Assembly: GCF_003122325.1 (NCBI RefSeq)
Contig: NZ_QFBC01000028.1
Coordinates: forward strand, 1 to 44,450
Length of the DNA stretch: 44,450 nucleotides
Source: Rhizobium album
Lineage (GTDB): Bacteria > Pseudomonadota > Alphaproteobacteria > Rhizobiales > Rhizobiaceae
Direction of reading: 5' to 3'
Part shown: one piece after another, positions 10,731 through 41,908 of the stretch
Layout: each line of letters opens with the position of its first letter
Position numbering within the stretch: the first letter of the stretch is position 1
The notes under the pieces: generated by a model
Database searches by the model: none
Told to the model about the DNA's origin: nothing
Seen by the model: the letters and a program-made list of their open reading frames with translations, nothing else
Position numbers and translations under genes: made by a program

Positions 10731-10805
10731 TGGCGCAGCGCCGCCAGAGTTGAACTGACACAAGCGGTTTTGGAGACCGCTGCTCTACCGTTGAGCTAGA
10801 CGCGC
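10731..10805 (-). tRNA. tRNA-Trp-like gene, anticodon CCA
   Basis: Read on the minus strand this folds as a tRNA: T8-A9, D stem GCTC/GAGC, anticodon stem GCGGT/ACCGC around CTCCAAA (anticodon CCA, tryptophan), a four-base variable loop, T stem GTCAG/CTGGC with loop TTCAACT, and an encoded CCA at 10733-10731. The acceptor stem is weak: five inner pairs form, but the outermost two are G-G and C-T, and the 3' side is one base long. It may be a working phage tRNA, a degenerate one, or a tRNA-like signal. Confidence 0.65.
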
Positions 10806-14720: not shown

Positions 14721-16844
14721 TCAGCTTGGCCAGTACCAAAGCCCGATATTGTTGACATGCCCGTCTTCAATGAGTTGCTTAGGTGCCCGCTGGAACTGTT
14801 TGCGAGCGGTTTCTGCCGCCCCAGCAGACGTCATGTCGCGGCTGGCGTAGAACTCCATTCGCCAGGCCTGCTCGTCCACAACGAGGACGTCTTCGGGGTA
14901 TTGTCGGCCATCAGGCTCAATGCCGTTCTTGGCCACGGCTCGCCTCAGGGCATTGAGTACGTCGCCTTTAGGGCCTTTCAGCGTTCCGCTGGAAGGCGGC
15001 TTTTCTGCTTCTGCGACCACGACGACTGGCGCAGTTGTTGGTTCTCCATCCTCGTTCACGCCAATCTCAACAGGCTTCATCATGAACGCCAGGACGTCGC
15101 CATCCTCGCCGTCGTTGGTGCCATCGCAAACCAGTTTGTGGACGTTGCCATCCTTCTTTACCATGAAGCTCGCGTCGACTGCACCGTCCAGGTCGATAGC
15201 GCCCTTCCCCCGTTCGCCGCTCCAGGCGCTGTGATGGATTGCTGTTACATGGGCTTTGGTTTCAGTCAGGATGTGGTCGCAGGACCGGACGAACTTGACC
15301 ATGTCCTTAGAAGCGTTCTGGTCGCCGGCGCCAAACACGCGCGTAAGGGTGTCGATAATCACCCAGACGCATTTGTGACCTGTAATCGTTTCCGCGTCCC
15401 GGATGATTTTTACGATCTCCTCCGCATCCTTGAGGTCACGGGTGAAATCGAGCATGCCACCGACAACGAGCAGCGGAACGTCTTGAACGCCGTGGTGCTT
15501 TCGGAACGCCATCATGCGCCGCTCAGTGAGTTTCTTGCGCTCCGCAGCCACATAGATGACCAAGCCCTGCTGGACGCGCAGGCCGTGCCAATCCATCCCG
15601 GCCGCGATATGGCAGGCTAGATCCGTCGTCACGACACTCTTCCCCGTGCCCGGCAGCCCTGAAATCGTCGTGAACTCCCCGACGCCGAGCCATCCTTTCA
15701 GAATGGTCTCCTTCGGCTTGCCCTCAACGATTTCGTCGAACCAGGTGAGTTCGAACCGCTCCCGCTTCTTTGGCGCGGGCTCTTGCTGCGTGCTTTCGAT
15801 AATCTCTGGGCCGGCGCGCTCCTTCTTCGTCAGGTTCCGCTCGACCATGGCGGCAAGGGCGCCGGGATCCGATCCGGCAACATTGTCATTGTCGCCCTGC
15901 GGGATTTGCCGCGGTGAATTAGCGGTTTTGTCCAAGCCTCGTTTTATCTTGTCCCAGCATTTGCGCTCGCCGTCGGTGGCGATGAGACCATTTGACCGAG
16001 CCGCGTCAATCAGGCCTTGTTCGGCGTCACTTCGGGAGATATGCCCGCCCGCGACGAACTCCCCGATGTTGCAGGCGCTTGCGAACAGCTGCTGGCCTCG
16101 CTGCCCTTTCGGAGCGGAAGCAAGGTTCTCAAGTTCCATCTCGAACGAGCGGCTTGCATATCGTGCTGCGGACGCGTCCTCCGGCTGATAGCGATACTCG
16201 CGAGCCTGGCGCTCAACTGGCTGGGGAGCTTTGGCTATCACCAAATCCAACAACCAATCGGGGGCATCCGCAATGTCTGGAATGCCATCGGCCTCGTGGT
16301 CGAGCCATTGATACCGCCGGCCGTCCGCCATCACCGAGCCGGGGGCCACGATGTACCCACCCTCGCCCCTGGTATCAACGCCTGATGCGATTGCGGCACG
16401 GTTGCGAACGCCGTCGACATGGCGAAAGAATATGTGCGTTCCGCCATTGGCAGTGCTGGCTCGAGCCGTCGGCGGGAGAGCTCCGTGCTTCGCTTCCATA
16501 TCGGCGAGCCACTTGTGCCCGTCGCGATCGCCGTGTCTGTCGAGGTCAAGCACCCATGCCCCGAGCTTCTCGCCTGTTGGCACGCCGATAACGCCGGTCG
16601 GATACTTCTCGCCAAACCAGATATTGACGATACGGGCTGATGTCGTGGCGCCTTTCAAGCCATTGCTGGTATACGGCGCCTTTTCCGAATACTCGATCCA
16701 TTCGCCAGTGCTCTGGTCCTCACCCCACTGCTTCGATTCACGACACGGGAAAACCGAAATGCCCGCGGCGATATACGCGCGGGCAACATCAATGGGAGCC
16801 TTGTCGTCCGCACTTAGCGGCTGCTTTGCCCATGGCTTAGACAT
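14721..16844 (-). CDS. Primase-polymerase / RepA-type ATPase (replication initiator)
   Basis: A 707-residue two-domain protein. Residues 15-200 form a bifunctional primase-polymerase domain: catalytic acids in WVLDLDRHGDRDG (near 100), GGTHIFFRH (near 135), and SGVDTRGEGGYIVAPGS (near 155-170). Residues 365-600 form a RecA-fold helicase of the RepA/AAA_25 type, with Walker A GLPGTGKS at 396-403 and Walker B VWVIIDTL near 490. The C-terminus may be a small winged-helix region. The iterons lie just past its stop, so it probably binds, opens and primes the origin. The ATG follows GGGAGTG. Confidence 0.88.
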   Translation of the reverse strand: MSKPWAKQPLSADDKAPIDVARAYIAAGISVFPCRESKQWGEDQSTGEWIEYSEKAPYTSNGLKGATTSARIVNIWFGEKYPTGVIGVPTGEKLGAWVLDLDRHGDRDGHKWLADMEAKHGALPPTARASTANGGTHIFFRHVDGVRNRAAIASGVDTRGEGGYIVAPGSVMADGRRYQWLDHEADGIPDIADAPDWLLDLVIAKAPQPVERQAREYRYQPEDASAARYASRSFEMELENLASAPKGQRGQQLFASACNIGEFVAGGHISRSDAEQGLIDAARSNGLIATDGERKCWDKIKRGLDKTANSPRQIPQGDNDNVAGSDPGALAAMVERNLTKKERAGPEIIESTQQEPAPKKRERFELTWFDEIVEGKPKETILKGWLGVGEFTTISGLPGTGKSVVTTDLACHIAAGMDWHGLRVQQGLVIYVAAERKKLTERRMMAFRKHHGVQDVPLLVVGGMLDFTRDLKDAEEIVKIIRDAETITGHKCVWVIIDTLTRVFGAGDQNASKDMVKFVRSCDHILTETKAHVTAIHHSAWSGERGKGAIDLDGAVDASFMVKKDGNVHKLVCDGTNDGEDGDVLAFMMKPVEIGVNEDGEPTTAPVVVVAEAEKPPSSGTLKGPKGDVLNALRRAVAKNGIEPDGRQYPEDVLVVDEQAWRMEFYASRDMTSAGAAETARKQFQRAPKQLIEDGHVNNIGLWYWPS

Positions 16845-26353: not shown

Positions 26354-27523
26354 TCAGTCCTTGTAGGGATCGAATTCGTTGCTGCCCGCCATGATGACGC
26401 CGCGAGGCTTCAGGACGTGCTCGATCGAGATCGTGCCTGCGTGAGCGGCGAGAACCTCAGGCAGGCGTCGGTAGGCCTGCGGTGCTTCGTCGAGGTCGCT
26501 GCCAAGCACGGTGACACCTTTGTCGCGAATCCACCGCTGCCACTCATCGTGGCGCACTTTGCCAGGCTGGCGGATCTTCTTCCCGTCCACCTTCACAAAC
26601 TTGCCGCGAGCTTCGGTTCGCGACATCACACGACCGGCGCCGTGCACGGTGGAGTACAATGATGCTGCCGACTCCGGCGTGTCAACGCCGCGCAAGATGA
26701 CGGCGTCATCGCCCATGGAGCCACCGACGAAACCATACTGGCCTGGGAATGCCGGCGTTGCGCCTTTGCGAACCACCCACATGTCGATTCCGCCATGGTT
26801 CTCGTGCCAGGCAAAATTGTGGTGGTTGTGAACACTGAACGTGACAGCGCCGCCAATGATTTGACGGACACGCTCAACCACCCACTCACGGCCAGCGTAG
26901 GCGTAGAGACCACCAAGTTCTATGCCCGCTAGATAGCCTCGCCCCGTATCGCTGTCTGCAGGAAGCAGTGCCGGCGGCACTTCCATTCCATCTTTGGCGC
27001 CAGCGAGCGCGAGGTACTTTGTCGTAATCTTGTGGCCGAGCCCGCGAGAGCCAAAGTGCACGCCGATCCACGTGGCGCCGTCGTCGCCCTCGAAGATATC
27101 GACATAGTGATTGCCCGAGCCGACAGTGCCCAGTTGAGCTTGCGCCATCGATTTCAGGTCTGCGACCTCGGCAGCGTCCCAAAGGTCGCTCTCAAAAATC
27201 TCATGCTCGACACGCTCATCATTTTTACGACCGACTCCGAACGAAACGACGCGGGAGATATCCTGGAGTATCTCACCGATGCGCGGCGCGATATCGGCAT
27301 AAGGCGTATCGAGGCGGACTGCCATGTTGCCGCAAGCGATGTCGAAACCCACGCCGCTGATGCTGATGTGGTCGGTGTAGCCCACTACGCCACCGATCGG
27401 ATGCGCGTAGCCCAGGTGTCCGTCAGCGCACAACACGCCTGCGGCAGCACTGCCGGTGTTCATGCACGTTTCCATCTGCCCGATGGTTTTGTCGTCATGT
27501 TGACCATAAATCTTGAAGGTCAT
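26354..27523 (-). CDS. rtcB: RtcB-family RNA ligase
   Basis: A 389-residue RtcB-type ligase, which joins RNA 2',3'-cyclic phosphate/3'-phosphate and 5'-OH ends using GTP and manganese. Metal and guanylylation motifs are intact: GVGFDIACGNM (Asp61, Cys64), LGTVGSGNHYVDI (135-139), GVHFGSRGLGH (His156), HNHHN (232-236) and HGAGR (294-298, the guanylylated His). The family ending EHVLKPRGVIMAG is present. No archease partner is nearby. In phages RtcB can repair tRNAs cut by host anticodon nucleases. The start follows the recurrent GAGGAGATATC leader. Confidence 0.93.
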   Translation of the reverse strand: MTFKIYGQHDDKTIGQMETCMNTGSAAAGVLCADGHLGYAHPIGGVVGYTDHISISGVGFDIACGNMAVRLDTPYADIAPRIGEILQDISRVVSFGVGRKNDERVEHEIFESDLWDAAEVADLKSMAQAQLGTVGSGNHYVDIFEGDDGATWIGVHFGSRGLGHKITTKYLALAGAKDGMEVPPALLPADSDTGRGYLAGIELGGLYAYAGREWVVERVRQIIGGAVTFSVHNHHNFAWHENHGGIDMWVVRKGATPAFPGQYGFVGGSMGDDAVILRGVDTPESAASLYSTVHGAGRVMSRTEARGKFVKVDGKKIRQPGKVRHDEWQRWIRDKGVTVLGSDLDEAPQAYRRLPEVLAAHAGTISIEHVLKPRGVIMAGSNEFDPYKD

Positions 27524-27604
27524 GATATCTCCTCTTGTGGTGGCGACGCATGGTAGGCGCTGCATGTTGGCGACTACGCCGGTCGCAAACTCAGACGTCA
27601 ACCG

Positions 27605-29290
27605 CTAAAATGGGATGTCGTCGTCCATCTGGGCGCGCCAATCGACGTTGTCGTTCGCGGGCGGTTCGCGGTTGTCATTGGCAGCAGCAACCCCGACGCG
27701 GTGCGCCATGATATCGGGATACTTGGGATCCCGCTCGTAGTTCAGCTGGATCTCGGTAGTATCCATCAATTCAGCTTGCCGCTCCAGGAACTCCAAAACA
27801 TCGCGCGGGAACGGGCGCTTTCCGCCGTGCATCATCCACCACCGATCGGCTTTTGATTTCGGATATCCGGTGTGGGCACAGCAGACCCACTCATTCACCT
27901 GCTTCATGCCGACGAGGTAGCTGACCTTGACACTGTCCGGCTTGCCGGGCTTGCCTGGGTGATGGAAGAACGACCTTGCCGAAACTACATGCCAAGGCTT
28001 TTCGGTTGAGAGCACCGGCGTAATGTCGGCCTTGGCCGTGATCTTCTCTTCCTCATTTGGTGGGAAGACGTAGCCGCAGCACTGACACGTCATGATCGAA
28101 ATCGGAATAAGCTCACCACACCCGCACTGACCATTTATGTCCGGCGCATCGGGTGGGCACAGCTTCTTCGGCTGCTCGCCAAGACCTTTGCCCGGCTCGC
28201 GCGGCCGAATCTGATCAATCGGCCCATGATACGCGAGATTCCGTCCATGGTCGGCCACCAGGCAGTCGGTCTTGCCCGGTGAGTTGCGGGTGCCGCGGCC
28301 AAGAATCTGCACCAGCTTTCCGGCCGACTTCGTGCTGATCAGCAGCGATATGAAGTCGACGAAGGGGAAATTCGTGCCGGTGGTAATCATGTTGACCGAC
28401 ACGATCGACCACAACTCCCCGGCCTTAAACGCCGTGAATATGCGGTCCATCTCGTGAGCGTTATCGCTGGTCAATGCTTCGCAGGTCCGGCCGTGTCGCC
28501 GGATCGCGTCGCGTATGTGGATCGCATTTTCCTTGCTGGTGCAGAAGAATAACCCCGCCCGCCTGTCGGCGGATGCAATCATGTCTTCGGCGATCGCCTC
28601 CTCGATGATGTGTTCTGCCGCTTCGGCCACCTGCCCTGGGATGTAATCGCCACCACGGGTGCCGATGCCCTTCAAATTTATCTTCGCTGCAGTTTTCTGG
28701 CTGGTTAGGCGGGTGAGATATCCTTGCTCCATTAGATCGCCAATGCCGATCTCGTAGACGACGTCATCGAATAGTCGGTCGTCGCCTTCCGTCAGGCGAC
28801 CGGAATCCATCCGGTAATCTGTAGCGGTCGTCCCGCAAACGCGGCTGTCCGGATTGGCTTCACGAACCGCTTCGAAGAATTTTCCGTACTGCGTGTCGGA
28901 ATTCCGGCTGATCGCATGCGCTTCATCAACAATGACCAGGTCGATTTCGCCAATCTGCGCCACCTTGTTCCATACGGACTGGATGCCGCAGAAAAGCACC
29001 TGCGCCGACGCGTCGCGCCGCTTCAAGCCAGCCGAATAGATCCCCGCGGGCGCGAACGGAAGCAACCCGACGAATTCCTTGTAGTTCTGTCCGACAAGAT
29101 TGGCGGCATGCGTGACGTTGAGGATACGCATGCTGGGATAGTCGGAGAGTAGTTCCTCGATAATCTTGGCAATGACCAGCGCCTTGCCGGCGCCAGTCGG
29201 CAGCACGATAAGACCGTTGCCGCCGCCCTTCCCCCAGTATTCGTAGAGAGCATTAATCGATGCCCGCTGGTAGTCGCGGAGTTCAAGCAT
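27605..29290 (-). CDS. SF2 helicase with zinc ribbon and SSB-like C-terminal tip
   Basis: A 561-residue superfamily 2 helicase of the UvsW/type-III-Res-like kind: motif I LPTGAGKALVI at residues 30-40, motif II VIVDEAHA, motif III CGTTATD, and motif VI QILGRGTRN. Motif I has Ala where Ser/Thr is expected after GK. Residues near 395-425 hold a four-cysteine ribbon (CGCGELIP, then CQCCGYVF). The last residues, MDDDIPF, match the SSB C-terminal docking peptide exactly. Two NDN peptides precede it. The ATG at 29290 overlaps the sigma-factor stop (TGATG). Confidence 0.88.
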   Translation of the reverse strand: MLELRDYQRASINALYEYWGKGGGNGLIVLPTGAGKALVIAKIIEELLSDYPSMRILNVTHAANLVGQNYKEFVGLLPFAPAGIYSAGLKRRDASAQVLFCGIQSVWNKVAQIGEIDLVIVDEAHAISRNSDTQYGKFFEAVREANPDSRVCGTTATDYRMDSGRLTEGDDRLFDDVVYEIGIGDLMEQGYLTRLTSQKTAAKINLKGIGTRGGDYIPGQVAEAAEHIIEEAIAEDMIASADRRAGLFFCTSKENAIHIRDAIRRHGRTCEALTSDNAHEMDRIFTAFKAGELWSIVSVNMITTGTNFPFVDFISLLISTKSAGKLVQILGRGTRNSPGKTDCLVADHGRNLAYHGPIDQIRPREPGKGLGEQPKKLCPPDAPDINGQCGCGELIPISIMTCQCCGYVFPPNEEEKITAKADITPVLSTEKPWHVVSARSFFHHPGKPGKPDSVKVSYLVGMKQVNEWVCCAHTGYPKSKADRWWMMHGGKRPFPRDVLEFLERQAELMDTTEIQLNYERDPKYPDIMAHRVGVAAANDNREPPANDNVDWRAQMDDDIPF

Positions 29291-29787
29291 CACGCCGCGT
29301 CCTGCAACGCCCGCCGGCCCAGTTCCTCGCGCTGGCGTATACGCTCTTTTGAAACGCCATACTTTTCTGCGATCTCGCGCAAGCCATCACCCATCGCCCG
29401 GCGCAAGACGACTTCGCCATGACGGTTGGCGTCCAGTTGTTCCAGCGTCTGCAAAAGCTCGAGGCGTTCGATTTGGTTCGGCAAGTAGCTTGCCGACACC
29501 ATCGACTCCTCATCGTCAACGAACGTGATGCGCGTTTTGCGCTTCGCCTCGCGCCGGCGTTTGTCCTGGGCTTTGTGGCGCATGCACAAGGTGATCCAGT
29601 TGTAAAAGCCACCGTCTGGGCGGAAGCTTTTCCAGTGGAGCAGGATATATGCGAGTGATTCCTGCACCAGTTCTTCGCGCTCGTCGGTATTGTTGCACAG
29701 GCGGGAGGCGAGCCGCTTTAGGTGCGGCATGTAGCCTAGCAGGCGCGCATCGAATTCTGCAGGACGGTTATCGTTGGCCGGGGTCAT
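29290..29787 (-). CDS. Phage RNA polymerase sigma factor, ECF-like
   Basis: A 165-residue two-region sigma factor. Region 2 covers residues 20-80 (HLKRLASRLCNNTDEREELV, ESLAYILLHWKSF, then FYNWITLCMRHKAQDKRRRE). Region 4 covers 120-160, with helix-turn-helix LREIAEKYGVSKERIRQREE. GGGAGGG lies upstream of the ATG. Lying in the middle of the early/replication block, it could redirect host polymerase to a later promoter class. A short N-terminal NDN peptide (MTPANDNRPAEF) precedes region 2. Confidence 0.8.
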   Translation of the reverse strand: MTPANDNRPAEFDARLLGYMPHLKRLASRLCNNTDEREELVQESLAYILLHWKSFRPDGGFYNWITLCMRHKAQDKRRREAKRKTRITFVDDEESMVSASYLPNQIERLELLQTLEQLDANRHGEVVLRRAMGDGLREIAEKYGVSKERIRQREELGRRALQDAA

Positions 29788-31774: not shown

Positions 31775-32836
31775 TCAGACCCTCATAGGCATCAGGACGC
31801 CGGTCCAACCATCAAAACCCGCCGACGTGATAACGCCCGGCGCGCCGCCATCGAGAAGCGCCAACTTGACCGGGCCAGCCGGCACGACTGAGAAAAGATC
31901 GCGGATGTACTGGCTGTTGAACCCAATATCGAGAGGTTCGCCGCCGTATTCCGCGGCGATTTCATCGCTGGCGCTGCCCGATTCCGGGTTGTTGACAGAC
32001 AGGCTGATAGCGCCCGGCGCGATGCTGAAACGCACAGCCCGACCACGCTCAGATGAGATCGTGGAGACGCGGTCTGCGGCTTTCATGATCTCGTCGCGGT
32101 CGACAGTGATGATCTTGTCGTTGGCCGTCGGAATGACGCGATTGTAGTCAGGGAACGTCCCGTCGATCAGCTTGCTGACGATGACCAAATCACCTGCTTC
32201 AACACGGATCTTGCTGTCCGACACGGACACCGTCACCGAGCCCTTCGGCAACAGCCCAACAATCTTTCGCGGCACGATGATGCCTGCGAACTCGGCACTG
32301 GCCGCAACGTGATGCCGCGAAAGACGATGACCGTCCGTCGCCACTGCGATGGTCTTGTCGAACTCCCCCTTGAAGAAGATGCCATTTAGATAGTAGCGCG
32401 TTTCCTCGGTTGAAATCGCAAATTGAACCGGCGCGAACAGGGCGGCGAGATCAATGTCAAAGGTGGCGTTGTATGTGCCGGCTGTTAAATCGGGGAAGTC
32501 CGATGCTGGCAACGTTGCAAGTGAAAAGCGCGACCTGCCTGACTTGACGATTAGCTGGTCGCCCTCAAGCGTCAAGCTGACGTCGTCGTTGCCCGCCTTC
32601 TTTGCGATGTCCGCCAAAAGCTTGGCGTTGACGCAAGTCTCCCCGGCTGCGTGAACCGAAGCGGCGGCCGAAGCGGTAACTTCGACATCCAGATCGGTAC
32701 CTCGCAGTGTCAGGCAATCGCCGTCAGCCGACAGGCGCAGCATGGACAGGACCGGGACGGTGTTTCGCGCCTCGACCGCTCTGCCGACAGCAGTGACGGC
32801 GCGCGCAAGGTCTGCGCGCTTTATGGAAAGCTGCAT
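31775..32836 (-). CDS. dnaN: DNA polymerase III beta-type sliding clamp
   Basis: A 353-residue DnaN-like clamp, close to bacterial beta length (about 366-375). It begins MQLSIKRADLARAVTAVGRA, has repeated clamp folds (LRLSADGDCLTLRGTDLDVE, then FSLATLPASDFPDL and YYLNGIFFKGE...VATDGHRL), and ends GWTGVLMPMRV, equivalent to the bacterial MPMRL end. It would encircle DNA and tether polymerases. No phage polymerase is in the window, so it may work with host Pol III or divert other clamp clients. The leader is the recurrent GAGGAGACATC. Confidence 0.92.
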   Translation of the reverse strand: MQLSIKRADLARAVTAVGRAVEARNTVPVLSMLRLSADGDCLTLRGTDLDVEVTASAAASVHAAGETCVNAKLLADIAKKAGNDDVSLTLEGDQLIVKSGRSRFSLATLPASDFPDLTAGTYNATFDIDLAALFAPVQFAISTEETRYYLNGIFFKGEFDKTIAVATDGHRLSRHHVAASAEFAGIIVPRKIVGLLPKGSVTVSVSDSKIRVEAGDLVIVSKLIDGTFPDYNRVIPTANDKIITVDRDEIMKAADRVSTISSERGRAVRFSIAPGAISLSVNNPESGSASDEIAAEYGGEPLDIGFNSQYIRDLFSVVPAGPVKLALLDGGAPGVITSAGFDGWTGVLMPMRV

Positions 32837-32888
32837 GATGTCTCCTCTTGTGGTGGGAATGGCGCCGGTGGTGAGCCGGCGCGGTAGG

Positions 32889-33413
32889 TTAGGCTTGCGG
32901 TCCGAAACGGCCATATGCCTCGATCACGCCCATTGCCTGCGCTTTCGCATCATCAAGAGCGTTGTGGGCGATGCCAACGCTTGGCTGCGTGGTGCCCGTG
33001 AGGTCAAAGAGTGTACGGCAGTCCCTAGGCGATCGGTAATGCCAGGGCGTTTCCATTCCACAAGCTTGAAATGCCGATTCAATCAAAACTAAATCAAACG
33101 ATGGAGGTTTCGCCCACACGCGATCCGCACACGTACGTCGAACATATGTGGAGAATTCTGCTAGTACTCCGCCAACCTGGCGGTCGCCGGCAAATGCCGA
33201 TCGACGAGCCTCTTCCGATTGTTCCATCCACCATTGAACGGTTGCAGCATCGATGGTCAGACCTGCCTTCGTGGCGCTCGCTGGATTGATGGAAGCGTAA
33301 AATTCTTCTCCGAATTCTCCGGTCAGGGCGTCGAAAGTAACTGCTCCGATGCTAAGAATCACGCTTCCCGGTTTCGTGCCAAGGGTTTCAATATCGATCA
33401 TTAGGTCTCGCAT
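32889..33413 (-). CDS. DnaQ-like 3'-5' exonuclease (DEDDh)
   Basis: A 174-residue DEDDh exonuclease. Exo I is MIDIETLGTKPGS (Asp7, Glu9), Exo II lies around PPSFDLVLIESAF, and Exo III is GIAHNALDDAKAQAMGV with the His and Asp. It resembles exonuclease VIII-type phage enzymes. It could proofread or process ends next to the clamp gene. The ATG at 33413 overlaps the lipoprotein stop (TGATG); an in-frame GTG three bases earlier is less likely. Confidence 0.85.
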   Translation of the reverse strand: MRDLMIDIETLGTKPGSVILSIGAVTFDALTGEFGEEFYASINPASATKAGLTIDAATVQWWMEQSEEARRSAFAGDRQVGGVLAEFSTYVRRTCADRVWAKPPSFDLVLIESAFQACGMETPWHYRSPRDCRTLFDLTGTTQPSVGIAHNALDDAKAQAMGVIEAYGRFGPQA

Positions 33414-36248: not shown

Positions 36249-37226
36249 TTAGGCGGCTCGCGCGGCCCAGTCTTCGACGGCGTTTTTTGCCGTGGCCAAC
36301 CCCAGTCCCGTAATGGCGCGAAGCTCCTTGATCGCATTGACCTTCTGGCCTGCGGCAGCTAGGCGCTGCCACTCATGGTCATAAGTCGGCTTGGGCACCT
36401 GGAACGTACCGTTCAGCACGTAGACGCCGAACTCCTGGCCCTTGTGCTTGGCGGCAAGGCGGTTGGCCTCGGCGGTGGCAGCCCCCACGGTGTTGTGGAT
36501 GTACGGTCGTGCCGCAGGCTTAGGCTGGCCGTCCTCGATGAGGGCAACGATTGCGGTGGGGTCGACACCATGGGACGCCGCCGACCGCACCAGCCAATCG
36601 CAGCTAGACAGACTGTAACGCATCGGAATGCCAAAGGAGTCGATCCAGAAGGAATCTCCTTCAATGTGGGCCACTTCGTAATAACGAAGCCAACCGTTGC
36701 CTGGCCACTTGACCCAATCCCCAACCTTGAACTTCGGCTTGGCAACGTTGTCATTGCTCGCCGACGGTGTGCTGGCAGAGCCGCGTCCGTATTCGTCAGA
36801 CAGGGTGTCGGACTGGGCGGCAACGTTGACTTTGGGCTCGGTCCATTCGGACACAAGGTCCGTAGGTCCTCCTCGATCTATCCGATAATATCGTTCGCCG
36901 GTATCGATCCAAAGGCGCCCACTGCCTTCGGCCGCCCAGGTGTCGCCGTTGAACTTATACATCGGCCCGATTTTCTGGCCATCGCGCGTCTTGTAAAATT
37001 TGCCTTTCTCTATTTTTAGAGGCGCATGTCGAATCACTGAGGGTGAAAAAAACCACCGGTTTTGTACTTTATCGCCGAGGCTGCCGTCATGGCCGCCCGC
37101 CCATCCGTCGCCAAACTCCACAAGCACGGAATAATCGTCGAAAGCCGAAACCACGCCTTCGTGCTCTCCCACTACACCGCCACGCCCCTTTGCAATGACC
37201 CGGTCGTCAACCTTAAACTTGCCCAT
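36249..37226 (-). CDS. Multi-domain protein with L7/L12-like C-terminus
   Basis: A 325-residue protein. Residues 1-60 (KFKVDDRVIAKGRGG...VLVEFGDGW) and 165-210 (KFKVGDWVKWPGNGWLRYYE) look like SH3/KOW-type beta barrels. The last 40 residues (VNAIKELRAITGLGLATAKN, then AVEDWA) match the helix-loop-helix of the ribosomal L7/L12 C-terminal domain, which binds translation GTPases. The ATG at 37226 has GGAGGG eight bases before it; an in-frame TTG at 37232 is rejected. There is an NDN peptide in the linker. Role unknown. Confidence 0.6.
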   Translation of the reverse strand: MGKFKVDDRVIAKGRGGVVGEHEGVVSAFDDYSVLVEFGDGWAGGHDGSLGDKVQNRWFFSPSVIRHAPLKIEKGKFYKTRDGQKIGPMYKFNGDTWAAEGSGRLWIDTGERYYRIDRGGPTDLVSEWTEPKVNVAAQSDTLSDEYGRGSASTPSASNDNVAKPKFKVGDWVKWPGNGWLRYYEVAHIEGDSFWIDSFGIPMRYSLSSCDWLVRSAASHGVDPTAIVALIEDGQPKPAARPYIHNTVGAATAEANRLAAKHKGQEFGVYVLNGTFQVPKPTYDHEWQRLAAAGQKVNAIKELRAITGLGLATAKNAVEDWAARAA

Positions 37227-37228
37227 GT

Positions 37229-37513
37229 TCAAGCCCTCCCCGCGGCACGAACAGCCGCCAAATCGATGATGTCTGCGGACGGTGCATCCGCCGGCGGCTT
37301 TGCGGCGCTGCCGCTGTTGTCGAATTCCGGATCTGGCTCAAGCTCGATGAATTCGTACCAGACCGGTTGGAGCACGCCGACGAGGCGCACCTGATATTCA
37401 CGGCCCCAAGAGCGCTCGCCGATGATCTGGCCGGTAACGAGATGATTGGACGTCAGGCGAACCTGGTCGCCATAGTCGAAGAAGACGCCTTCGCATTCGT
37501 CGCACATATTCAT
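37229..37513 (-). CDS. Small SH3/KOW-like protein
   Basis: A 94-residue protein beginning MNMCDECEGVFFDYGDQVRL, with VTGQIIGERSWGREYQVRLV, a beta-barrel pattern similar to the SH3/KOW segments of the next gene. A Cys-x-x-Cys pair lies at residues 4-7. It overlaps the preceding HTH gene and lies two bases before the L7/L12-like gene. Function unknown. Confidence 0.6.
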   Translation of the reverse strand: MNMCDECEGVFFDYGDQVRLTSNHLVTGQIIGERSWGREYQVRLVGVLQPVWYEFIELEPDPEFDNSGSAAKPPADAPSADIIDLAAVRAAGRA

Positions 37514-38036: not shown

Positions 38037-38104
38037 GGTGTTTGCGGGGTTAGGCGCCCGTTAGCTGGGTTTCGATGGTGCCGTGGCCACGCCCCACAAT
38101 TCCT

Positions 38105-38974
38105 TCACCCCATGCACCGGCGCCATTCGGCGAACATCATCCGCAAGAGGCGCTTTTCGGTGTATCGCTTCGCCCGATTTGCGGCGTGGGCGGTATAGCT
38201 GTCTTTGCCGGTTTTCGATTCCTTGATGGCTTCACCGGTCTTGTGCGGCAGGCGTTCTGCCTCATAACGGGCGCGATTCGCAAAGACCTTTTGCAGCGTC
38301 GTGTATTCCGTGTTGTCGTCGATGACTTCGCCGAACAGCGGACGGAATTTGCCCATACCGAGGATAATCGAGTTTCCGACATTCCACATCAGTGAACGCC
38401 GGGTCGGCGAGTACGCGTGAAGCAGCGCTTCGTCTCCAGCCTTACGGCGCTGGCGTTCACCGCCGATGACGGCCAATCCCATACGTTTCCAGACGGCCGA
38501 AACAGACTTGAAGTCGCCCAGGCTGTAAAACTCACCTGTTTCGCGGTGATATCCGCTGCACTCGCCAATGATACAGGCGGCCGACACGTCGCCAAGTCCC
38601 TTGATAGACTTCACCCATTCGAAGACCGGCAGCTTCTTGACGGCACGAACGAGCTCCTTTTCGTACCTGCCTTGCTGGTCGTCGAGGATCTTGAGCGACA
38701 TAAGGTAGGGCGAAATTGCGCCGTAGTATTCGTGCTCTTCGTCTTTTGATGCCGCAGCGAAAGTGGCTGCGGCCTGCTCCTTGTCGCCATCGAAATGCCT
38801 GCGCAACGAAGCCTGCGCCTGCAAGATCAATTTGGTTCTGGCCTTCACCATGTCCTGGCGTAGGCGATAGTACTCAATGATATCTTCAATCGCCTCGGTA
38901 TAGATGCCCGACGTTTTGAATGGCGCGGCGGGCATTGTTACGGGCGGAGTTGCAAGTTCGGTATTCAGATACAT
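38105..38974 (-). CDS. Helix-hairpin-helix protein resembling IS110 Tnp C-terminal domain
   Basis: A 289-residue protein. The N-terminal 110 residues are coiled coil (IEDIIEYYRLRQDMVKARTK). Residues 120-215 resemble the Transposase_20 region of IS110-family enzymes: SIKGLGDVSAACIIGECSG (a helix-hairpin-helix), FYSLGDFKSVSAVWKRMGLA, and YSPTRRSLMWNVGNSI. The RuvC-like DEDD domain and the serine motif of IS110 transposases are not seen, so it is not a working transposase. It may bind branched DNA. The recurrent leader precedes it. Confidence 0.6.
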   Translation of the reverse strand: MYLNTELATPPVTMPAAPFKTSGIYTEAIEDIIEYYRLRQDMVKARTKLILQAQASLRRHFDGDKEQAAATFAAASKDEEHEYYGAISPYLMSLKILDDQQGRYEKELVRAVKKLPVFEWVKSIKGLGDVSAACIIGECSGYHRETGEFYSLGDFKSVSAVWKRMGLAVIGGERQRRKAGDEALLHAYSPTRRSLMWNVGNSIILGMGKFRPLFGEVIDDNTEYTTLQKVFANRARYEAERLPHKTGEAIKESKTGKDSYTAHAANRAKRYTEKRLLRMMFAEWRRCMG

Positions 38975-38992
38975 GGTGGTCTCCTCTTATGT

Positions 38993-39371
38993 GCCGAGCC
39001 AATGGGTTGCGGGCTTCGGCGTGGTGGTTTGGGGTCCAGAAGGCGCGGCAGATAACCGATGGGTTGCACTCCGCCAATGGCCGCGCCTTCTGGGGTTGGT
39101 TGCGAGCGGGCACGGCGCATGAAAGGTGCACGTGGCGTCGATGGCGCCTGCTCGTTGCCTGCCGTGCAGGCGATAGGGATGAAGTGGCGCGGCGGTGTGG
39201 ATGTGGGTTGCGCTTGGCCCATAGCCGCACCACTTCAAACAGGTTGCAGATGGGTGGCAACAACCGCAGGGGCTGCGTTCTTCTCCAGGCCATTCCACCT
39301 GCAAAGGATTTGCTCGATGACTGGCGTGTATTCGTTGGGTTGCGCGCTACAAGTGGCCATCCATCGAGCAA
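38993..39371. repeat. Stem-loop array, left block (six hairpins)
   Basis: Six hairpins between two leftward genes: 38993-39020 (short), 39036-39093 (14 perfect pairs, CCAGAAGGCGCGGC), 39103-39154, 39181-39236 (12 of 13 pairs, GAAGTGGCGCGGC), 39244-39304 and 39310-39371 (TTGCTCGATG/CATCGAGCAA). Stem sequences differ completely, but the long ones are 52-62 bases, close the stem with GGC/GCC where clear, and usually hold a loop near 30 bases containing GGGTTGC (at 39004, 39061, 39205 and 39337). No ORF in any frame fits across them. Same family as the block at 40013-40797. Confidence 0.75.
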
Positions 39372-39385
39372 TTCAAAGCCCAAAC

Positions 39386-39988
39386 CTAGACTTCCGAGGC
39401 CAGCGCCTTGCGCTGCAACTCCTCGATCCGCTTGAGCGACAATGACTTGTGAATGGGAACGCCGGGCTTCGCTGCAGATGCGATAGCAGAGAGCCAGCGG
39501 CCGGTGCGAACCATAGTGGCACCCTGGCCGAGATAATGGGCGATAGCGGGCGCGAGCTCTTCGGGCTTGGCCTGACCGAGCAGCACTTCGCCGCCTTGGC
39601 CGTCTTTAAATTTGGTGAGGTAAAGCCCCGTCAGCACCGCGCCAAAACGGCGGGCTCGGGCATTGCTAGCGGCCTTTGATGCGGCGCTCTGTTCGACGAA
39701 CGGCACAACAGTAGATGGAAGCGGGTCGTTTGCGGCCTCGTCGACAATTTGGACCGAGCCGATATCTTCGCCGCGCAAGACGCGCTGACGGTCGGATCGA
39801 GAAATGGCGCCAACGATTGCTGCTGCGGCTTCCCGCCAGGCTTCTTCATGCAGCGCCGGGCGCTTGCGGAGTTGTGCGATCACAAGCTCAATTGCTTTGC
39901 CGCTATCGCGGCCAGCCTCATCGTACATGCGAAGGCATGTGGAATGCAGGTTTTCGGATCTCGCGCCTTGTGGTCTTGTTGCTGTCAT
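39386..39988 (-). CDS. Hypothetical protein inside the stem-loop array
   Basis: A 200-residue helical protein, flanked on both sides by hairpin blocks. Segments: MTATRPQGARSENLHSTCLR, AAAAIVGAISRSDRQRVLRG, ARRFGAVLTGLYLTKF and LSLKRIEELQRKALASEV. No catalytic or metal motif is visible. The ATG at 39988 follows the recurrent GAGGAGACCACT leader. Being embedded in the array, it may be functionally linked to it, for instance as an RNA- or hairpin-binding protein; that is speculation from position. Confidence 0.6.
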   Translation of the reverse strand: MTATRPQGARSENLHSTCLRMYDEAGRDSGKAIELVIAQLRKRPALHEEAWREAAAAIVGAISRSDRQRVLRGEDIGSVQIVDEAANDPLPSTVVPFVEQSAASKAASNARARRFGAVLTGLYLTKFKDGQGGEVLLGQAKPEELAPAIAHYLGQGATMVRTGRWLSAIASAAKPGVPIHKSLSLKRIEELQRKALASEV

Positions 39989-40012
39989 AGTGGTCTCCTC
40001 TTGGTGGGGTGG

Positions 40013-40797
40013 CCTGCCGGGCGCGATTTCAATGGGTTGCGTGGGACGGTTGGCTTGGCAGGTATTGGTGTTGCGGGTGGCGGCGCTTGGTGACTGGGTT
40101 GCGGTGTCCCTTTGGCATCCACCTGCAATTCGGGTTGCGACGACGGTGGCGTCTTTCCCACGGACCGCGACAATTCCCTGGCCACCGTCGTCACAATGTT
40201 TGCTGATCGGCGAACATCTACTGGGCTGCGTAAGGTTCGTGGCCGATCAGCCCGCCTCGCGGCGGAGTGGGATTGAGAGAGGCGGCTCTCGCGGTTTGGG
40301 TTGCGGCGACTTCCTGGCCACCCCTCTCAATTTAATCACGAACGGCGCGGCGGCTTCTCGATGGACACCACGTGAATGATGGCCGCGCCGTTCGTATTTC
40401 TGGCCGTGTCGCCGCTTGGCGCCATCGGGTTGTTGGGTTGCTTGCCGCTGCGAACGCGGAATGGGTTGCGCGTTGCCATTGGCAACAACAAGCAATAAGG
40501 CTGAGAGCGGGGCGGCGCTGTTATGGTTTTCGCGGGCGCTCTGGCCACACTCTCAATTTCTGCTGACCGGCGCGTTTCCGCTGGATTTCGTTGGGTTAAT
40601 GGCCGGTCAGCGCCCTCTCGGGCATGGGTTGCAAGTGGTGCGGCGCCATGTTCGTGGGTATCGCCGTCGTCCTGGCCACACCACTTGCGTTCGGTCGGGG
40701 AGGATGGCGGCGAGGCCGTTTTGAGTTTCGCCGCCTTTCTGGCCGCCACCCTACCCTAGCTAACTTTCCACAGCGCCGCTTGCGGCGTTCTGGAAAG
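40013..40797. repeat. Stem-loop array, right block (twelve hairpins)
   Basis: Twelve consecutive hairpins: 40013-40062, 40071-40128, 40139-40192 (12 perfect pairs), 40202-40251 (10), 40272-40331, 40338-40395 (14 perfect pairs, ACGAACGGCGCGGC), 40438-40495, 40502-40555, 40562-40611 (10), 40631-40688 (10), 40702-40750 and 40764-40797 (short loop). Apart from the last they are 49-60 bases, separated by 6-42 bases. The loop-closing pairs are mostly GGC with (T)GGCC. GGGTTGC occurs at 40034, 40096, 40132, 40298, 40435, 40463 and 40626. Stems are unrelated to each other, so pairing rather than sequence is conserved. Confidence 0.8.
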
Positions 40798-41152: not shown

Positions 41153-41908
41153 ATGCCACACAATATGAAAAAACCAATTTCGACTGACGAAGTGACGGCG
41201 ATTATGGCTCAACGTCTTGTGGAGGCGCGGATCGCCGCCGGCTTCAGCAGGCGATCAGATGCCCTCAATCGGTTTACAAGCTGGAGTCCAAGCACCTACG
41301 CCAGCCACGAGTTAGGTCGGCGTCGCTTCGACTCCGATTTTGCTGAGAAGTATGCTGTCGCATTCAAGGTGCCGGTATCGCATCTCCTAGCGCACGATCT
41401 CTATTCTGCAGAAGAGACGAAGCCGACATCGAATATTGTCCGACTTCAGCGTCCGAGGCCAAACGCGAGCTTCCCTCCGATTTACCAATCGTTCAATACT
41501 GAATCGACCCTGCCTCTCCTAGGGCAGACTACCGGCGGTCCAAATGGGCGCTTCATCCTGAATGGAAGCGAAGTCGGCCGAGTCTTTTGCCCACCAATGC
41601 TGGAGGGAGTTGAAGGGGCGTATGCAGTGCGCGTCTTCGGAACATCCATGGAGCCACGCTTTAAGGCCGGCGAAACGGTCTGGATCAACCCACACGAGCC
41701 CGTTCGCGCCAAAGACGACGTCGTCGTGCAGCTGCTGACCGACGGCGAGGACCAGCCAACAGAAAGCTATATTAAAGAGTTTCGCTCGCAATCTTCAAAA
41801 GTTCTTCGCCTGTGGCAGCACAATCCTGACGAGGACGAAAGCCACGAGATGGTTTTTGACAACGAAGACGTCTTCTCTGTACACAAGATCGTATTTCATG
41901 CGGTTTGA
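41153..41908 (+). CDS. S24-type phage repressor (CI/LexA-like)
   Basis: A 251-residue repressor. Residues 15-80 form the DNA-binding helix-turn-helix (RLVEARIAAGFSRRSDALNR, then YASHELGRRRFDSDFAEKYA). Residues 140-250 form the S24 peptidase/dimerisation domain with nucleophile Ser165 in FGTSMEPRF and the likely general base Lys208 in SYIKEF. It should keep lysogeny and self-cleave with activated RecA. It has no ribosome site before either ATG (41153, 41165), as in leaderless repressor mRNAs. It diverges from the leftward genes. Confidence 0.88.
   Translation: MPHNMKKPISTDEVTAIMAQRLVEARIAAGFSRRSDALNRFTSWSPSTYASHELGRRRFDSDFAEKYAVAFKVPVSHLLAHDLYSAEETKPTSNIVRLQRPRPNASFPPIYQSFNTESTLPLLGQTTGGPNGRFILNGSEVGRVFCPPMLEGVEGAYAVRVFGTSMEPRFKAGETVWINPHEPVRAKDDVVVQLLTDGEDQPTESYIKEFRSQSSKVLRLWQHNPDEDESHEMVFDNEDVFSVHKIVFHAV

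Follow-up and report, generated by a model that had tools for sequence, protein, structure and literature searches.

The window analysed here is a stretch of 44,450 nucleotides from Rhizobium album (contig NZ_QFBC01000028.1), which carries 17 stem-loop units, arranged as two sub-arrays and a single unit around a tasA-like gene and a conserved accessory gene. On the evidence of its sequence, the identification of this array as a phage-borne stem-loop TIGR-TasA system is well supported. TIGR (Tandem Interspaced Guide RNA) arrays mostly hold 9-nt spacers between a box C (CCA) and a box D. According to the main text of their discoverers (Faure et al., 2025; PMC12045711), the arrays also come in a second form that consists of stem-loops, and TIGR systems target both DNA strands in tandem. 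An earlier sequence-only reading of the window, which noticed the hairpins, could not place their pattern among described elements, but stem-loop TIGR arrays have been described (PMC12045711). While the type of system has already been described, the replacement of spacers within constant stems and the accessory gene appear to be new.

Stem-loop units and the genes between them

The upstream sub-array (40013..40751, minus strand) comprises 11 units, at 40702-40751, 40635-40684, 40562-40611, 40504-40553, 40442-40491, 40342-40391, 40277-40326, 40202-40251, 40141-40190, 40075-40124 and 40013-40062, and the middle sub-array (39040..39365, minus strand) comprises five, at 39316-39365, 39249-39298, 39184-39233, 39104-39153 and 39040-39089, both being recognised by pattern, covariance model and covariation. 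A single unit lies downstream of tas (38046..38095, minus strand; 40.3 bits, E 8.4e-7 with the covariance model). Read on the minus strand, the layout is stem-CCA-N9-(mostly C, else T)G-N4-CCA-N9-(mostly C)G-stem, with N4 mostly nAAC. When the pattern CCA-N-G-linker-CCA-N-G within a stem was searched with free spacing, the minus strand of the window gave 13 matches, 12 of which lie at 38086-40675 and have, every one, the exact spacing 10-4-10; the thirteenth, at 15141, is spaced otherwise. The plus strand gave three matches, outside or at the edge of the region and none with 10-4-10 spacing. Shuffles of the region (one strand) held a mean of 0.07 matches (maximum 2, n=500) and those of the whole window (both strands, any spacing) a mean of 3.05 (maximum 9, n=40). 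Admitting variant box letters brings the count to 17 units, all on the minus strand (11 + 5 + 1). A covariance model built from these 17, whose self-matches are therefore by construction, scores them all on the minus strand at E values no worse than 2.3e-4; beyond them, the best-scoring match in the window stands at E 0.096.

The roughly 18 hairpins (six plus twelve) first noticed are real and far above chance, but they amount to 17 units, 16 of which (11 + 5) fall within 38993..40797. The covariance model does not recognise as units the hairpins near 39.0 kb and 40.79 kb, and the unit at 38046-38095 had been overlooked. The assignment of the hairpins to a leftward, minus-strand transcript agrees with the strand of all 17 units, and for the same reason the opposite orientation proposed for the "39103" and "40071" hairpins falls away. 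The closing GGC/GCC includes the pair formed by box C and box D. The recurrent GGGTTGC (GCAACCC on the minus strand) spans the G of box D, the four linker bases and the first bases of the second box C. Its 11 copies in the region had been counted correctly, with four others elsewhere in the window instead of the one reported, and the total of 15 compares with a shuffle mean of 7.5 (2 of 100 shuffles reach 15). At gathering scores, tRNA alone was matched by Rfam in the window, and the likeness and complementarity of spacers A and B within a unit are no higher than in permuted pairs.

That the fold is under selection, as had been proposed, is borne out by the stems, whose covariation score is 0.668 compared with 0.166 (sd 0.034) in shuffles, none of 500 scoring as high. 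Eight of the 11 stem pairs are changed on both sides, a number reached by 19 of 500 shuffles, and the signal is lost once the partner is slid. Open frames are few (two of six in the 396-base block and none of six in the 811-base block) and the spacers are unrelated between relatives, which speaks against a conserved protein in the array blocks.

The tasA-like gene (38105..38974, minus strand) encodes a Nop-type protein of 289 amino acids, identified through NCBIfam and a PDB profile. It matches NCBIfam NF052498 (TIGR_Tas_endo) at E 1.2e-20 and 74.4 bits, as do all 15 members of an alignment of the window Tas with 14 relatives (A3), and the profile of this alignment matches PDB 9mty_A (E 6.9e-6). 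A Nop-domain Tas protein thus adjoins the array, which is a feature of stem-loop TIGR-Tas systems. Pfam gave no match at E 0.001, leaving the protein without a recognised nuclease domain. Its predicted structure opens with long helices (mean pLDDT 70.5). Foldseek ranks IS110-family recombinases first, as weak matches at E 0.035 and above with TM about 0.35, and a partial match to the NCBIfam IS110 model (E 2.4e-9) stays below the cut-off of that model. We considered TasR and TasH, with their N-terminal RuvC or HNH, and set them aside given the 289-amino-acid length, the lack of a Pfam match and the helical start of the model. Tas homology together with the absence of a recognised nuclease domain leads us to call the gene tasA-like.

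The sole gene between the two sub-arrays is the accessory gene (39386..39988, minus strand; 200 amino acids), which belongs to no known family and was identified as conserved from tblastn relatives and their alignment (A4). A tblastn search of 21 loci detected relatives in 19, or in 15 of 17 once duplicates are set aside; the relative in L018 is weak (E 2e-4). L012 has the gene after tas, and L013 and L026 have an open reading frame (ORF) of similar size near the accessory position, its likeness judged by eye alone. Searches of NCBIfam, Pfam, PHROGs and PADLOC gave no good match for the protein, nor did its model (mean pLDDT 65.7) match any PDB fold with E under 1. According to the main text of Faure et al. 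(2025; PMC12045711), TasA has no clear protein associations except a ParB-like gene in some dual-repeat loci; the same text makes no mention of the present gene, which appears new for TIGR loci.

Relatives, spacer replacement and phage context

The Tas protein was detected in 4 of 300 related genomes (own genome included, one weak), on 13 viral contigs (the window's own counted) and seven genome contigs, some of which represent the same prophages, and in one isolated phage, Rhizobium phage RHph_X2_25, while plasmid records held none. At blastn level, the phage collection contained no DNA relatives of the region. At an E threshold of 0.01, the window-only covariance model recovered 117 units, every one on the tas strand, from 14 of the 15 related tas loci; the fifteenth (L017) yields three on that strand when searched alone. 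As these loci were fetched through tas, they offer no independent evidence that units and tas go together. The same model gave no units in 38 of the 53 fetched integrase-flanking mobile-element stretches (758 kb). A bulge-free unit finder recovered none in L016, L024 and L025, where a bulge-tolerant finder recovered three each. After five of 146 rows were dropped for lying outside arrays or inside a gene, 141 units from 17 loci were retained, representing 130 distinct spacer pairs. Box C reads CCA at 98/99/90% (first) and 97/100/82% (second), percentages that are partly by construction as the finder required most box C letters and both box D Gs. Not imposed by the finder are the C that precedes the G of box D in 79% and 91% of units, the nAAC linker, and the spacer columns, in which no base exceeds 40%. 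One bacterial genome carries two different tas loci (L003, G018:C2, and L006, G018:C4), each with its own stem-loop units.

To compare loci, units were matched by stem and not by position, each pair sharing 19 or more of 24 stem bases, and L016 and L025 were excluded as duplicates of L017. In 90 of the 103 stem-matched pairs both spacers agree at no more than 5/9, in six both agree at 8/9 or more, and seven fall in between. Mean spacer identity in the 90 is 24.5%, the value for unrelated letters, at a stem identity of 86%, which is raised by the constant inner stem bases. For pairs of loci, the identities of tas, accessory gene, stems and spacers are 93, 91, 88 and 24% (L014/L015), 89, 92, 65 and 19% (L008/L009), 77, 71, 82 and 30% (L010/L011), and 79, 26, 92 and 59% (L014/L026), the higher spacer value in the last being due to some units that are shared whole and others that are wholly different. 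Since the stems remain alike while both spacers are at chance, guide pairs are, as read from these alignments, exchanged near all-or-none within constant stems. The replacement may proceed by stem-homology exchange between phages or by copying from a target. The 9-nt spacers TTGAAATCG and ATGAAGCAT are each shared singly by two unrelated units from different phages (window unit 40013-40062 and L009:5626; L009:5566 and L115:24844), their partner spacers differing; 0.15 recurrences would be expected, and these two cases hint at a shared spacer source.

Neither the accessory gene nor guide-pair replacement in constant stems was found in the open-licence literature, preprints and supplements lying outside that search (PMC12045711, PMC12385481). 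The discoverers of TIGR-Tas name spacer origin, array change and natural targets as open problems in their main text, with most systems residing on metagenome contigs (PMC12045711). Constant stems with replaced spacers bear on how TIGR arrays change, related arrays can be aligned by their stems such that spacer turnover becomes measurable and testable, and an isolated phage, RHph_X2_25, carries the system.

Beside the array lies a divergent CI-like repressor gene (41153..41908, plus strand; PHROG 4, E 1.6e-21; Peptidase_S24), and the leftward array transcript would start between this gene and 40.8 kb. Sigma-70-like promoter sites on the minus strand at 41159-41130 and 40940-40911 are consensus matches only, and the consensus search listed no terminator-like site on that strand. 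RHph_X2_25 has a repressor and an integrase, the latter 83% identical to that of phage 16-3. With a repressor adjoining the array and with both genes in RHph_X2_25, the window looks like a temperate phage in a rhizobial-family host. Other minus-strand genes of the window include a phage protein with a ribosomal L7/L12-like C-terminal stretch (36249-37232; Pfam PF00542, E 2.5e-6), which is distinct from the L7Ae of box C/D particles; RHph_X2_25 has a protein annotated as L7/L12-like downstream of tas. Further, there is a phage protein matching RtcB-type RNA ligase models below cut-offs (26354-27601; NCBIfam, E 1.4e-29), a phage DNA polymerase III beta clamp (31775-32914; TIGR00663 above cut-off), also annotated in RHph_X2_25, a sigma-70-type factor (29290-29787) and a tRNA-Trp gene (10735-10805).

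Proposed function, candidate targets and rival explanations

Unit geometry, strand, Tas homology, the accessory gene and near all-or-none spacer replacement are features of the sequences compared; for transcription, processing, dimer binding and two-strand targeting we reason by analogy with the systems in the main text of Faure et al. (2025; PMC12045711). The array would be transcribed leftward with the accessory gene and tasA, and the transcript cut, probably by a host RNase, to single hairpin guide RNAs, each with two 9-nt spacers that are flanked by CCA (box C) and C/T-G (box D). Each hairpin would be held by a TasA dimer, with each of the two spacers pairing to a different strand of a single 18-bp DNA site. 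Given the lack of a recognised nuclease in TasA, binding there would obstruct transcription or replication rather than lead to cleavage. Swapping spacer pairs whole in constant stems would then re-aim the array with the scaffold unchanged, and genes of competing phages are the most likely targets. Guided DNA binding against rival phages is thus the most likely role, and we regard the full explanation (a TIGR-TasA array, dual-guide DNA binding without cutting, replaced spacer pairs and rival-phage targets) as probable. With less confidence, and as something short of probable, we suggest that the stems serve as constant addresses, inside each of which a two-guide cassette is exchanged all-or-none, with nuclease-less TasA, assisted by the accessory protein, being re-aimed at rival phages. 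If true, guides would turn over by in-place replacement, without an adaptation module like Cas1-Cas2, and the array could be directed to new sites such as an integrase gene start or a conserved head-completion motif. No adaptation genes are reported with TIGR systems in the main text of their description (PMC12045711).

From the 8-nt 3' overhangs of the cutting rule (PMC12045711) we derived that the target strand should read spacer A followed by the reverse complement of spacer B. For the pair GGTGAAAGC/GTCATAATT (L014, L026), the tas-bearing G120 prophage has an 18/18 match close to the beginning of its integrase gene (PHROG 1, Pfam Phage_integrase), and the related G522 record has a 17/18 match; this pair also matches 18/18 in the integrase of one of two IMG/VR contigs found, the other of which looks unrelated. 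The second prophage of the carrier host has a different integrase without this site. The pair ATGAATTCT/CAGCACCGA (L015) matches 18/18 in a head-completion gene (Pfam PF05521) in seven of 12 IMG/VR stretches and on one bacterial contig, its matches in the other five stretches lying in other genes, and in the two carrier phages of these pairs the closest match has at least four mismatches in the parts searched. The eight pairs of RHph_X2_25 were covered by local target searches, not by genome searches. In three related phage stretches (L121:1139, L127:5448, L130:11356), the gene for the terminase large subunit contains a 17/18 match to an L018 pair. An L019 pair has 18/18 matches in three genomes, but they lie in a host gene that looks amidohydrolase-like by eye, and we discounted them as chance.

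A number of results weigh against the full explanation. The 74.4 bits of the Tas protein for NF052498 lie below the curated cut-off of 100. In 394 family genomes, 133 true pairs gave nine in-register 18/18 matches and one permuted set gave 14, such that there is no bulk enrichment of true over permuted pairs at genome scale. By PHROGs, two of the nine true matches lie in integration or head genes compared with none of the 10 permuted ORFs scanned (from 14 matches), numbers too small to separate the two sets. One of 20 permutations had an exact gap-free match in 1.15 Mb of phage DNA (none of six in a smaller set), and a further 0.90 Mb of mobile-element stretches gave no match at one mismatch or fewer. 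For the window's own 17 pairs, no site was reported in the own 6.86-Mb genome in a search at gap 0 only, which recovered an 18-base positive control; one window pair matches 18/18 at a host gene start in two genomes, which we take as chance. Four other pairs, among them two from the window, had no match in exact scans of IMG/VR.

The 214 kb of tas loci held no target at one mismatch or fewer, while the wrong arrangement rcB.A gave one match there and permuted pairs one in two sets, and integrase loci held no target at that threshold beyond the known one. At genus level, 35 Brucella-group pairs gave four exact matches compared with none for permuted pairs, three of the four in the amidohydrolase-like host gene, and at 17/18 there were three true compared with five permuted matches. 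Phage genes as natural targets are weakly supported.

It is also conceivable, if unlikely, that the TIGR-TasA array serves to regulate host genes, or those of the phage that carries it (lysogeny, integration, copy number), instead of acting on rival phages. The lack of a recognised nuclease and the adjoining repressor would suit such a role, most of the nine exact matches are in genes resembling host genes, and gene regulation and help for integrases are among the options named in the main text of PMC12045711. However, spacers that serve to regulate fixed genes should be retained, and here they are replaced at chance identity; the window's pairs have no reported gap-free site in the own genome, and whole-genome matches are no commoner than with permuted pairs.

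We hold it to be highly improbable that the hairpins are a structured leader RNA (antitermination or put-like, decoy or anti-defence) acting without DNA guides. They are indeed structured, selected and situated in the leftward leader region of the phage, but each has two fixed hypervariable 9-nt windows and the box layout, beside a Tas-like gene, whereas a put-like element would be expected to conserve its loop sequence. The 38 integrase-picked stretches without units point the same way, although the tas linkage in relatives is not an independent test. Just as improbable are DNA elements, be it recombination sites (attC-like), REP-type repeats or a partition site, for which the palindromic arms in non-coding DNA would speak, as would conserved stems that could provide short homology for cassette exchange. 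All 17 units share one orientation, 117 of 117 related units lie on the tas strand and box C and box D make the units asymmetric; integron attC sites were set aside on the grounds of this single orientation, the box layout and the Tas gene. Among the roles suggested by the sequence-only reading, a protein-binding structured RNA fits the TIGR-TasA interpretation, while antitermination or put elements, a decoy and recombination sites are not the best fit.

Comparison with known systems

CRISPR arrays also place guides in rows together with a linked effector. In the window, however, stems vary from unit to unit, each unit has two short guides, and guides appear to be replaced in place and not added at one end. 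IS110 transposases with bridge RNA (IS621, ISCro4) resemble the window in the predicted fold of Tas and its partial NCBIfam IS110 match, but the window Tas is without a recognised catalytic domain and there are many guides instead of one. Closer are the dual-repeat TIGR systems (TasR, TasH, TasA), with which the window shares 9-nt spacers, a CCA box C, a G-C pair across the loop and an A-rich loop. It differs from them in having variable stems in place of edge repeats and no recognised nuclease domain. Box D is UG in TasR arrays, diverging but covarying elsewhere according to the main text of PMC12045711, whereas it is mostly CG in the window.

The stem-loop TIGR systems are fitted by the window in every feature tested on sequence. 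Variable palindromic stems stand in place of edge repeats (covariation 0.668 compared with 0.166), and the window units and the 141 units have 9-nt spacers, CCA and a G-ending box D, letters that were partly required by the finder. A stem-loop TIGR array with TasA is known from a Peromyscus leucopus gut contig (Faure et al., 2025; PMC12045711), and words starting with Rhizob or Brucella are absent from the main text of that paper, a scan which names such as Sinorhizobium escape. Compared with the Peromyscus leucopus array, the window has a 4-nt, nAAC-like linker and an accessory gene in the locus, and its related loci keep their stems while changing their spacers.
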